Positions 55,134-58,538 of a stretch of DNA of 64,000 nucleotides are shown piece by piece (the stretch's first letter is position 1; every line of letters begins with the position of its first letter). Both the position numbers and the translations under genes were made by a program. Source of the stretch: an uncultured Alphaproteobacteria bacterium (GTDB lineage: Bacteria > Pseudomonadota > Alphaproteobacteria > HIMB59); assembly GCA_902521465.1 (NCBI GenBank), contig CABYRL010000001.1, positions 62,001 to 126,000 of the forward strand, written 5' to 3'. A model generated the notes under the pieces. The model did not search any database and had not been told where the DNA came from. It saw only the letters and a program-made list of their open reading frames with translations.

Positions 55134-56297
55134 ATGTTAGACACAATAGAGCTATCAAAAAAATTAATATCTTTTGACTCTGTTACACCAGCAAAACAAG
55201 ATATTTTTGATTTCTTAATTGAAACATTTGAAGAAAATGGTTTTACAACAAAACAACTAAACTTTGATGGAGATGGGAGTTACGAAGTAATTAATATAAT
55301 GGCTACGTATGGGCCAACCAATACAAATGGAAAACATTTTAATTTTTTATGTCATGTTGATGTAGTGCCCCCTGGTAACTTAGAGGATTGGGACACACCA
55401 CCTTTTGAACCAACGATTAAAGATGGGTATTTATATGGTCGTGGATCAGAGGATATGAAGGGGTGCACGGCAGCCAGCATGGTAAGCGTATTTAAATTTA
55501 TAAAGGAAAATAAAGATTTTAATGGCACAATAAGTTTTATCATAACTGGGGATGAAGAAGCAGACTCCGTAAATGGTGTAAAGAAAGTGGTAAAATGGTT
55601 GAAAGAAAACAATATCAGAATAGATGGATCAATAGCTACTGAGTCATCTTCTGAAAAAATAGTCGGTGATCAGATTAAGGTTGGAAGAAAAGGAGCAGTA
55701 GATGTTCAAGTTGAAATTATTGGTAAGCAAGGGCATGCTGCGTATCCTCAACTAGCTCAAAACCCCTTACATTGTTTGTCTAAAGTTATCTCTTTTTTTG
55801 ATGATCAAAAACTTGATGATGGCGCAGAATATTTTGAACCATCTACGCTTCAATTTACTCAGATCAATTTAAATAATAAGGCAAAAAATGTAATCCCTGA
55901 AAAATTGATAACTGTTGGCGATATGCGCTTTAATGACAACTGGGATAAAGAAAAAATACAGAACTATTTTGATGAACACTTAACTAAGATTTGCGCAGAA
56001 AATAATTGTTCGTATAAGTTGAAATTAACTTTTAGAGGTATGCCTTTTCAATCTTTCAATAATCCATTTACAAAACATTGTATTAAAGCAATCAAAGATG
56101 TAACGGGATTAGAAGCTAGCCAAGATACAGGAGGTGGAACATCAGATGCTAGATTTATGCAAGAAATCTGTCCTGTCTTTGAATTTGGAACAATTAACAA
56201 AACTCTGCACAAAGTTAATGAGTGCGTTTCTATCGAAGATCTCAAAACGACTGAACAAATCTATTTCAAAACTTTAGAGAACTTTTTTGACAATTGA
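55134..56297 (+). CDS. dapE: Succinyl-diaminopimelate desuccinylase
   Basis: A 387-residue M20 metallopeptidase-fold enzyme. Metal ligands appear in 'FLCHVDVVPPGNLEDW' (His/Asp), 'YGRGSEDMKGCTAAS', 'ITGDEEADSVNG' and 'GTINKTLHKVNE'. The dimerisation domain insertion (about 180-300) includes 'GRKGAVDVQVEIIGKQGHAA'. It releases succinate to give LL-diaminopimelate for peptidoglycan. Its TGA overlaps the TTG start of the peroxiredoxin. Confidence 0.96.
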   Translation: MLDTIELSKKLISFDSVTPAKQDIFDFLIETFEENGFTTKQLNFDGDGSYEVINIMATYGPTNTNGKHFNFLCHVDVVPPGNLEDWDTPPFEPTIKDGYLYGRGSEDMKGCTAASMVSVFKFIKENKDFNGTISFIITGDEEADSVNGVKKVVKWLKENNIRIDGSIATESSSEKIVGDQIKVGRKGAVDVQVEIIGKQGHAAYPQLAQNPLHCLSKVISFFDDQKLDDGAEYFEPSTLQFTQINLNNKAKNVIPEKLITVGDMRFNDNWDKEKIQNYFDEHLTKICAENNCSYKLKLTFRGMPFQSFNNPFTKHCIKAIKDVTGLEASQDTGGGTSDARFMQEICPVFEFGTINKTLHKVNECVSIEDLKTTEQIYFKTLENFFDN

Positions 56298-56770
56298 AAC
56301 AAGGAGATTTAATTCCTGATATTACTTTAAGATCTGTCTCGGCAGATGGTACTAAAAATTTTGGATTTCACGATAACTTCAAATTAAAAAGGGTAATGAT
56401 AATTTGCGTTCCAGGAGCATTTACTTCAACATGTCACATGCAACACCTTCCTCCATTTATTAAGGGTGCAAAAAAGTTAATGTCTGAAAAGCAAATTGAT
56501 CAAATTTGTTGCATGACCACTAATGATCCTTATGTACTTGATTTGTGGAGAAAAGATTTAGGTGACTCAGAAATTTTATTTTTATCAGATGGAAATAATG
56601 AGTTTTTATTATCTTCTCAATTGATTAGAAATCATGAAAATAGCTTTATGGGTCAAAGACTTATTCGTTCAATTATCTTAGTAAATAATCTCAAAGTTGA
56701 AAAATTAATTTGTGATAAGCCAGGTGAGTTAAAAGAAACAAGCTATGAGTCAGTTTTAGGTAGCATTTAA
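56294..56770 (+). CDS. Peroxiredoxin (Prx5-like redoxin)
   Basis: A 158-residue redoxin-family protein. The peroxidatic Cys lies in 'VPGAFTSTCHMQHLPPFI' near residue 48, the Prx5/AhpE-type active site. 'GDLIPDITLRSVSADGTKNF' is the usual first segment and 'ILVNNLKVEKL' the last strand. It reduces H2O2 or organic peroxides with thiols. The start is TTG 56294, overlapping the dapE stop by 4 nt; a GGAG follows within its first codons and no ATG is available. It overlaps the convergent glycosyltransferase by 15 nt. Confidence 0.86.
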   Translation: MKQGDLIPDITLRSVSADGTKNFGFHDNFKLKRVMIICVPGAFTSTCHMQHLPPFIKGAKKLMSEKQIDQICCMTTNDPYVLDLWRKDLGDSEILFLSDGNNEFLLSSQLIRNHENSFMGQRLIRSIILVNNLKVEKLICDKPGELKETSYESVLGSI

Positions 56771-57805
56771 ATACTCTTTTATTTTTTTGCTTGACTCAAA
56801 ATTATTTGCAAACACGTAACTTTTTCTACTATAGCTCTTATATTTTTTGAAAATATCGATAATTGATTTTACAAGCTGTTTGGGGTCATTTTCTTTTACA
56901 ATTATACCATTGTTACCTATTGACTCTGGAGTCCCCCCACTATTGCTGACTATGCAAGGCAATCCATAAGAGGCAGCTTCAACATTGGATATACCAAAGC
57001 CCTCAATACTTTGAGGTGTAGTAATAGTTGGCATTATATGAACAGAGGAATTTTTATAAATTTTTTCACTTGAGATATTTTGGTCTATGAAGTCTACCTG
57101 CTTTTGCAGTGAGAATTTCATAACAAGATCTTTCAATCTAGATAATTCTGGTCCATCTCCAAGAATTGCATATTTAAGTGATATCTTATAATCAGTTCTT
57201 AATATAGACATTGCTTCAAATACTAAATGGTGCCCCTTTCTATATTCTAGTCTAGCAACAGTACATAAATCGTATCTTTTTTTATTGTTAATATTTTTAG
57301 GAATTTTTTTTATAAAAGCTGGATAAATTATTTTATGATTAATTTTTTTTAAAATTTTAAAATTTTTAAATGTTTTATTTCTTGTAAATTGAGAATTATA
57401 GATAATTAAATCTGCTTTGTTTAAAGTATTTAGAATTCTATTTTTATCACTTAATTTTAATATTTCATTTCCATGAGCTAAGCAAATTTTTCTAATATCT
57501 GTAGTATTATTAAATAGCTCTAAAGATTTCCAGCTATCAAAAAAAATATAATCGATTTTATTTTTTTTTAAAAAGTTCTGAGCGAAACTTAATTTTATTC
57601 TTTTTCTAAGAAACTTGATTTGATCAAATCTGTAAATATCAAACTTACATTTATTGTCAAAATCTGAGGAGAAGAGTTTAGACCCGTCAGAGAGAACCGT
57701 TACTTTGTTTCGTGTGCTAGATGCATGATGAGCTATATTTGTCATTACAGACTCGATGCCACCTACTTTGGGAGCAAAACATTGTGTATAAATGAGAATG
57801 TTAAT
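56756..57805 (-). CDS. GT4-family glycosyltransferase with apparent ATT start
   Basis: A 349-residue GT-B glycosyltransferase. The C-terminal donor-binding half is clear: 'DLCTVARLEYRKGHHLVFEA', 'YAILGDGPELSRLKDLV' and 'TTPQSIEGFGISNVEAASYG' with the catalytic-type Glu, then 'PCIVSNSGGTPESI'. The N-terminal acceptor domain begins 'INILIYTQCFAPKVGGIESV' upstream of the first ATG (57745). That conserved segment can only be reached from ATT 57805, which has an AAAGGAG ribosome site 7 nt before it and overlaps the truA stop. The first ATG would delete the nucleotide-proximal GGIES loop. It probably acts on surface polysaccharide. Confidence 0.82.
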   Translation of the reverse strand: MNILIYTQCFAPKVGGIESVMTNIAHHASSTRNKVTVLSDGSKLFSSDFDNKCKFDIYRFDQIKFLRKRIKLSFAQNFLKKNKIDYIFFDSWKSLELFNNTTDIRKICLAHGNEILKLSDKNRILNTLNKADLIIYNSQFTRNKTFKNFKILKKINHKIIYPAFIKKIPKNINNKKRYDLCTVARLEYRKGHHLVFEAMSILRTDYKISLKYAILGDGPELSRLKDLVMKFSLQKQVDFIDQNISSEKIYKNSSVHIMPTITTPQSIEGFGISNVEAASYGLPCIVSNSGGTPESIGNNGIIVKENDPKQLVKSIIDIFKKYKSYSRKSYVFANNFESSKKIKEYLNAT

Positions 57806-58538
57806 AAGATATCTCCTTTAAAATCAATCCTTTTGAAGGGACCGTTGGTCCCGCTAACTTTCTATCTTTAGCTTCAATTAATTCCTTTATCCAATTAATA
57901 TTTTTATTTTTTAAACCAACTTCCAATAAAGATCCAACCATTATTCTAATCTGTTGATAAAGGAAGGACTGTGCCTTAAATACAAAAATAATTTTGTTAC
58001 CTTTGACATCAATTGATGCCTCATTAATTGTTCTAAGTGGTTTATTAGCTTGACATCCTTGTGCTCTAAACGATGAAAAATCGTGTTTGCCAAGAAACTG
58101 CTTAATAGCCTCTTGCATTGCACCTAAGTCTAAAGGTTGACGTATATGTATACTGAAATCGTCCTCAATAACAGATGGGGCTAGACTATTAAAAACTTGG
58201 TAATTATAAATCTTATTTTTAGCAGTAAAACGAGCATTAAATTTATCATCAACATTCTCAACTTTAGTAACTCTAATCTTTTCGGTCCCAAGGTGAAAAT
58301 TAATCCCATTTAAAATTTGATATTCATCAAATTGTTTTTCTAACTCAAAGTTAGCACATTGTCCAATGGCATGAACACCGGCATCAGTTCTTCCAGCACC
58401 TTGAATAGTTTTTTTTTCTCCAGAGAATTTAAATATTGCTTTTTCTATTTCACCTTGTACAGTTTTCTCATTTTTTTGGTGTTGCCAACCACAATAAGGT
58501 AAACCATGATACTCAATTGTAAGTTTTACATTAGTCAT
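57801..58538 (-). CDS. truA: tRNA pseudouridine synthase A
   Basis: A 245-residue enzyme that makes pseudouridine 38-40 in tRNA anticodon arms. The catalytic Asp is in 'GAGRTDAGVHAIGQ' near residue 52. 'YHGLPYCGWQHQKNEKTVQG' and 'FLYQQIRIMVGSLLEVG' are conserved. It overlaps fmt by 8 nt and its stop overlaps the glycosyltransferase start. Confidence 0.96.
   Translation of the reverse strand: MTNVKLTIEYHGLPYCGWQHQKNEKTVQGEIEKAIFKFSGEKKTIQGAGRTDAGVHAIGQCANFELEKQFDEYQILNGINFHLGTEKIRVTKVENVDDKFNARFTAKNKIYNYQVFNSLAPSVIEDDFSIHIRQPLDLGAMQEAIKQFLGKHDFSSFRAQGCQANKPLRTINEASIDVKGNKIIFVFKAQSFLYQQIRIMVGSLLEVGLKNKNINWIKELIEAKDRKLAGPTVPSKGLILKEISY

Follow-up and report, generated by a model that had tools for sequence, protein, structure and literature searches.

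The glycosyltransferase gene that directly follows truA on the minus strand of the 64,000-nucleotide stretch of DNA analysed here (the window) most likely starts at an ATT codon, at positions 57805–57803, which appears to have arisen from TTG within the overlap of the two genes, to be supported by a Shine–Dalgarno (SD) sequence and to persist partly by way of the truA stop. A conserved ATT start is well supported by comparison among related genomes, and our reading is that the AUU start is genuine and coupled to truA termination, with initiation and coupling both judged from that comparison. The case for the start rests on three lines of evidence: homologues that carry TTG at the same position, a coding signal ahead of the first ATG, and the absence of any other start.

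Table 1. Positions of the features around the junction of truA and the glycosyltransferase gene (window coordinates)
Feature	Positions	Strand	Basis or remark
Candidate ATT start codon, codon 1 of the glycosyltransferase gene	57803..57805	-	Same codon in 36/48 genus members; TTG in 12/48
GT4-type glycosyltransferase gene	56756..57805	-	349 aa + stop if read from ATT
Shine–Dalgarno AAAGGAG, 7 nt before ATT, within truA codons AAG GAG	57813..57819	-	Sequence, predicted pairing
truA stop TAA	57801..57803	-	Base 57803 common to TAA and ATT
truA, tRNA pseudouridine(38-40) synthase, directly upstream, same strand	57801..58538	-	TIGR00071
In-frame stop bounding the possible start region upstream	57818..57820	-	Identical in 36/36 ATT species
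Codon 21 ATG, first canonical in-frame start, within helix 1 of the predicted fold	57743..57745	-	Sequence and model

The locus and its start codon among relatives

Read on the minus strand in the glycosyltransferase frame, the upstream stop TAA (57820–57818) is followed by AGG AGA TAT CTT and then by ATT (57805–57803), after which the frame continues AAC ATT CTC ATT TAT ACA CAA TGT TTT GCT. The first in-frame ATG is codon 21, at 57745, and both GTG and TTG are absent between the upstream stop and this ATG. truA ends in TAT TAA, with the glycosyltransferase frame at +1 relative to it. The original prediction had described the ATT, its flanking codons, the upstream stop, the ATG at 57745 and the AAAGGAG 7 nt ahead of the ATT, all of which we confirmed base for base.

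Both genes were identified by profile searches. The truA product matches TIGR00071 (2.6e-62, 210.5 bits against a cut-off of 142.85), and its neighbour matches Glycos_transf_1 (PF00534; 6.2e-33, 114.2 bits, cut-off 26.4) and Glyco_transf_4 (PF13439; 1.3e-7, 32.2 bits, cut-off 28.5). The predicted structure of the latter has GT-B relatives in the PDB, the structures of BshA and PimB' being among those that match it best; profile and fold alike mark the gene as a GT4 glycosyltransferase. A named function was not reached, as the BshA model scored 62.4 bits against a cut-off of 273.7, below the equivalog threshold, and none of the 18 NCBIfam families listed attained its own cut-off. Frames further upstream on the same strand resemble what we take, from their translations, to be fmt, def and recR, and the glycosyltransferase gene appears to close this same-strand run. 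A search for a promoter of its own gave 7 promoter-like matches, below the shuffled mean of 11.0. At its other end the gene overlaps a convergent plus-strand frame (56294–56770), peroxiredoxin-like by eye, tail to tail by 15 bases (56756–56770).

We searched 52 genomes of the genus, one per species, and recovered the glycosyltransferase gene from 48; the genomes with no match (G028, G036, G037 and G049) are 56–79% complete. One of the 48 genes (L052) is a contig-end fragment, which is included in the start-codon count and excluded from the tree described below. A scan of contigs returned 37 loci, 35 from close relatives and 2 remote, which come largely from the same assemblies as the genus set and are not counted again. 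Codon 1 is ATT in 36 of the 48 genus members and TTG in the 12 others, which are the more distant species, and neither ATG nor GTG stands there in any of the 48. The original prediction had placed the start at this ATT and looked to related genomes to learn whether the codon was conserved or replaced by a canonical one. The comparison supports the placement: the ATT is kept in 36 of the 48 members that have the gene, and the replacement found in the remaining species is TTG at the very same position, which itself argues for the position of the start.

The predicted link to truA also held throughout, with truA directly upstream of and overlapping the glycosyltransferase start in 48/48. The overlap takes two forms, TAT TAA with ATT in 36 species and TAT TGA with TTG in 12. 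The arrangement with ATT exceeds chance, since 36 of the 48 genus members that yielded the gene share it. In all 36 ATT species, ATG, GTG and TTG are absent from the upstream in-frame stop to the conserved N-terminus and the open frame spans 347–349 codons, and the codon preceding ATT varies (CTT in 23, GTT in 6, GCT in 4, and ATT, TTT and ACT in 1 each). The C-terminal residue of TruA is Tyr, encoded by TAT immediately before the stop, in 48/48. Because the letters of the ATT are largely set by truA, through this Tyr codon (TAT makes up 74.9% of Tyr codons in the window) and the stop, conservation of the ATT does little by itself to show that it is used as a start.

Homologues from the sister family, of which 20 of 79 matches were read (L090–L109), carry ATG at the codon 2 position, one residue later, in 20/20. 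None of these 20 has truA upstream within the fetched stretch of about 0.9–1.07 kb, and the joining of the two genes may be a peculiarity of the HIMB59-like family. In one sister-family homologue (L105) the frame is open further upstream with other canonical codons, and the true start of that gene could lie further upstream.

Origin and persistence of the ATT codon

To place the change of start codon we used a protein tree of 67 rows with the start codon omitted, built by a quick method with SH-aLRT support only and no bootstrap; 22 of its 64 inner branches are open, and its root is the sister-family outgroup (20 homologues) on a long branch. The ATT rows form one clade (SH-aLRT of 100) inside a TTG grade, with the sister family outside, and the change from TTG to ATT is required once on this tree. 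An alignment of the junction DNA from 15 of the 48 sequences contains a single one-base gap, TATTGAA in the TTG species against TATT-AA in the ATT species. Loss of this base converts the truA stop from TGA to TAA, keeps the last Tyr of TruA and leaves the protein unchanged, and converts the glycosyltransferase start from TTG to ATT. That the 12 TTG species carry a canonical codon here, in a junction longer by one base, both supports the position of the start and explains the ATT. The ATT was probably derived once, in the ancestor of the 36 sampled species, when a TTGA start/stop overlap would have lost one base (TATTGAA to TATTAA). Since the clade has one origin, its 36 species do not count as independent events.

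The 16S rRNA gene of the same genome ends TGGATCACCTCCTTTCT, and with the mature 3' end inferred from it all 7 bases of AAAGGAG are able to pair. Among the 36 ATT species the SD sequence reads AAAGGAG in 34 and AAGGGAG in 2. It is predicted to pair at -8.5 to -8.8 kcal/mol in 36/36 of them (average -8.78), as compared with -0.6 to -7.1 kcal/mol in the 12 TTG species (average -4.41). The truA codons in which the SD is embedded oppose the codon preference of the window, where GAA accounts for 69.5% of Glu codons and AAA is preferred at 83.5%: the Glu is GAG in 36/36 and the Lys is AAG in 34/36, with AGG in 2. Across truA and the glycosyltransferase gene, 20 Glu columns are conserved, and GAG is invariant in the SD column alone; 0 of 29 conserved Lys columns are all AAG. 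This codon usage is consistent with selection on the SD. The strong SD may have followed the ATT or may be older than it. By one model and for one clade, the start codon is predicted to be unpaired at 0.80 in the ATT species versus 0.34 in the TTG species, and the SD at 0.41 versus 0.51, values to which we give no weight.

A genome-wide preference for SD–ATT starts was considered and rejected. The pattern AAAGGAG-N5-8-ATT occurs at 39 sites in the genome against 51 for a backwards control, and so is not a genome-wide signal; among the 30 of the 39 sites examined, only at 57805 does the ATT lead a frame of 60 codons or more that lacks a canonical in-frame start upstream, and there was no second case.

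In the mechanism that we propose, the AUU would be set in the P site either of ribosomes that terminate on the overlapping UAA of truA or of 30S subunits recruited by the SD, and fMet-tRNA would decode it there to give a product beginning Met-Asn-Ile-Leu-Ile-Tyr. We infer initiation at the AUU itself, and any reinitiation as opposed to fresh initiation, from comparison. The strong SD would offset the weak codon, and the AUU would persist at least partly because its only direct one-step fix, AUU to AUG, would remove the truA stop. Indeed, the sole single substitution that turns codon 1 into ATG, GTG or TTG is ATT to ATG, which changes the truA TAA to GAA in 36/36, and loss of this stop would lengthen TruA by 11–38 codons (28 in the window).

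The overlap blocks direct return at codon 1, not every return. An ATG at codon 3 is one step away in 36/36, leaves TruA unaltered and lies 13 nt from the SD. One-step starts are also available at the codon preceding the ATT (8/36; 4 nt from the SD, with the last Tyr of TruA changed to Asp), two codons before the ATT (20/36; 1 nt from the SD) and within the SD (36/36; altering a Lys or Arg of TruA). These one-step canonical starts at neighbouring codons weaken the idea of an absolute lock on the ATT, and we consider that the AUU is probably held in part by the overlap. In the TTG species, changing TTG to ATG or GTG would convert the TAT of TruA into a stop, so the older TTG start is also constrained by the overlap.

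How the rare start came to be kept is a question on which we are more tentative. A rare start may have spread clade-wide unselected, the truA stop then blocking direct return and selection shifting to the SD, an account to which we give somewhat less than an even chance. If it is true, rare starts elsewhere may be traps of overlapping genes rather than regulatory devices. The available parts of the cited work discuss non-canonical starts mostly as regulatory. With 36 sampled ATT species, TTG relatives and a readable origin, this marine lineage is a natural setting in which to test whether rare starts owe their persistence to adaptation or to trapping by gene overlap.

The AUU could instead be adaptive, holding the enzyme low, perhaps under the control of IF3 as in infC, sigR, cvfC1 and ccpN, with the overlap incidental; we regard this as possible but somewhat doubtful. 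Conservation in 36/36 species of the clade, with the one-step escapes unused, is what such an explanation would lead one to expect, and published cases as far as they are available point the same way, with low activity of AUU and AUA reporters in S. aureus and repression of the sigR GTC start by IF3 (PMC13009471, PMC5472188). However, the truA stop alone already fixes the third base of the ATT, so that no adaptive reason is needed, and the SD is stronger in the ATT than in the TTG species, which points to compensation for a weak codon.

Relation to other rare start codons

infC, the obvious yardstick for IF3 autoregulation, is present in 45 of the 52 genus genomes. In 30/30 loci read (L110–L139) an invariant TTG-AAY lies near the infC start, preceded by ATT (ATC in L121), and we set infC aside as a yardstick since the ATT is not clearly used as its start. 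The infC start in the genus is possibly a leaderless TTG (or ATT). The infC loci lack an obvious SD, and in some of them a TATAAT occurs immediately upstream.

Non-canonical starts with experimental characterisation are very few, according to the available part of one report (PMC5472188). Comparison with these, which here draws on the accessible portions of the respective papers, places the glycosyltransferase gene beside several of them. It is like E. coli infC and pcnB in being a chromosomal bacterial gene with an AUU start (PMC9410913, PMC4245954), and E. coli infC likewise has a strong SD (PMC1805508). It differs from both in encoding a glycosyltransferase, in overlapping the preceding stop with its start, in not being known to feed back on its own expression and in its apparent derivation from TTG by loss of one base.

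Parallels are also found in S. aureus, where cvfC1 (AUU), ccpN (AUA) and infC (AUA) have rare starts that are conserved among relatives and accompanied by extended SD sequences, as here. In poor medium, reporters with conserved AUU and AUA starts of this kind reached about 10% of the activity obtained with AUG, and in rich medium the ccpN reporter rose to as much as 30% (PMC13009471). Those starts were mapped by Ribo-Ret and reporters (PMC13009471), whereas ours was located by comparison; the start–stop overlap and the TTG-to-ATT history are features of the glycosyltransferase gene that are absent from the S. aureus account in its available part (PMC13009471).

In Borrelia burgdorferi the true start of pncA (BBE22) is AUU, and annotation of a later start cut off an essential N-terminal part (PMC13398362), much as a later annotated start would remove an N-terminal part of the glycosyltransferase. 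Unlike the start described here, that of pncA was shown by genetics, biochemistry and a crystal structure, and the accessible portion of the report mentions no stop overlap (PMC13398362). Streptomyces sigR, similarly a gene other than infC with a non-canonical start, begins with GTC and is repressed by IF3; in its case, unlike that of the glycosyltransferase gene, IF3 regulation was demonstrated (PMC5472188). Finally, IF3 overproduction inhibits both SD-less reinitiation and fresh initiation at non-canonical codons (PMC2268962), and the glycosyltransferase start differs from the SD-less reinitiation described in the available part of that work in having an SD.

Among the literature matches listed, titles and abstract openings named neither this glycosyltransferase nor a truA-coupled AUU start. 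The gene is a further AUU case beside infC, pcnB, cvfC1 and pncA, and of a new sort, with a readable one-base-loss origin and an overlap that aids persistence.

Other possible starts and translation ahead of codon 21

Initiation could instead use a near-cognate codon close by, for example codon 3, which is also an ATT, or the codon that precedes codon 1, a possibility that we consider unlikely. The sister-family ATG at codon 2 in 20/20 implies that the exact first residue is not essential, which leaves room for such a shift, but the codon before the ATT is variable, codon 3 is 13 nt from the SD, and TTG falls exactly at codon 1 in 12/12 TTG species.

A +1 frameshift at the truA UAU UAA would make the glycosyltransferase part of a fusion with TruA, aided by the SD-like sequence. 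The programmed frameshift in prfB has this anatomy, an upstream SD-like sequence and an in-frame stop, and at our locus an SD-like sequence likewise precedes an in-frame stop, with the glycosyltransferase frame at +1 to truA. We nevertheless hold a frameshift to be very unlikely. In the 12 TTG species the relation between the two frames is shifted by one base; a single frameshift would therefore fail in one of the groups, but a start codon held at one position works in both. In addition, a frameshift would require the tRNA paired with UAU in the P site to slip onto AUU, the SD lies 6 nt ahead of UAU, and truA does not adjoin the sister-family homologues in the fetched stretches (20/20).

Translation from the ATG at codon 21, with the stretch upstream of it untranslated or the gene in decay, has in its favour that no canonical start precedes this ATG in the open frame. 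Such a reading is extremely unlikely in view of how the preceding codons have evolved. When changes are counted over a tree of the 36 ATT species, 58 third-position changes fall in codons 2–20 as compared with 6 at first and second positions (p = 1.5e-21 against one third), and the codons from 21 onward have 894 and 529, respectively. These counts point to strong protein-level selection on codons 2–20, and hence to translation of the stretch ahead of the first ATG. Decay of the gene also sits poorly with a frame that is open over its whole length in 36/36 ATT species.

The predicted structure is consistent with the coding signal. In the AlphaFold model (39-row alignment; mean pLDDT of 91.6, with an average of 76 for residues 11–20), residues 2–7 form the first strand and residues 17–30 form helix 1, which places codons 2–20 in that strand and the glycine loop of the predicted GT-B fold, and codon 21 inside helix 1. 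Residues T7, Q8, F10, G15, G16 and E18 are invariant in the 39 aligned proteins (of 67 in the set). According to the model, a start at codon 21 would delete the first strand and the GG loop, with loss of the invariant GG; selection on codons 2–20 and the predicted fold together contradict such a start. Gene finders restricted to ATG, GTG and TTG would trim the first 20 residues and, with them, this strand and loop.

The original prediction had named a sequencing error as the main alternative to an ATT start, and, while a lone genome could carry one, a sequencing or assembly error is vanishingly improbable and is refuted by the presence of the ATT in 36 separate genomes, one per species, among the 48 of the genus.
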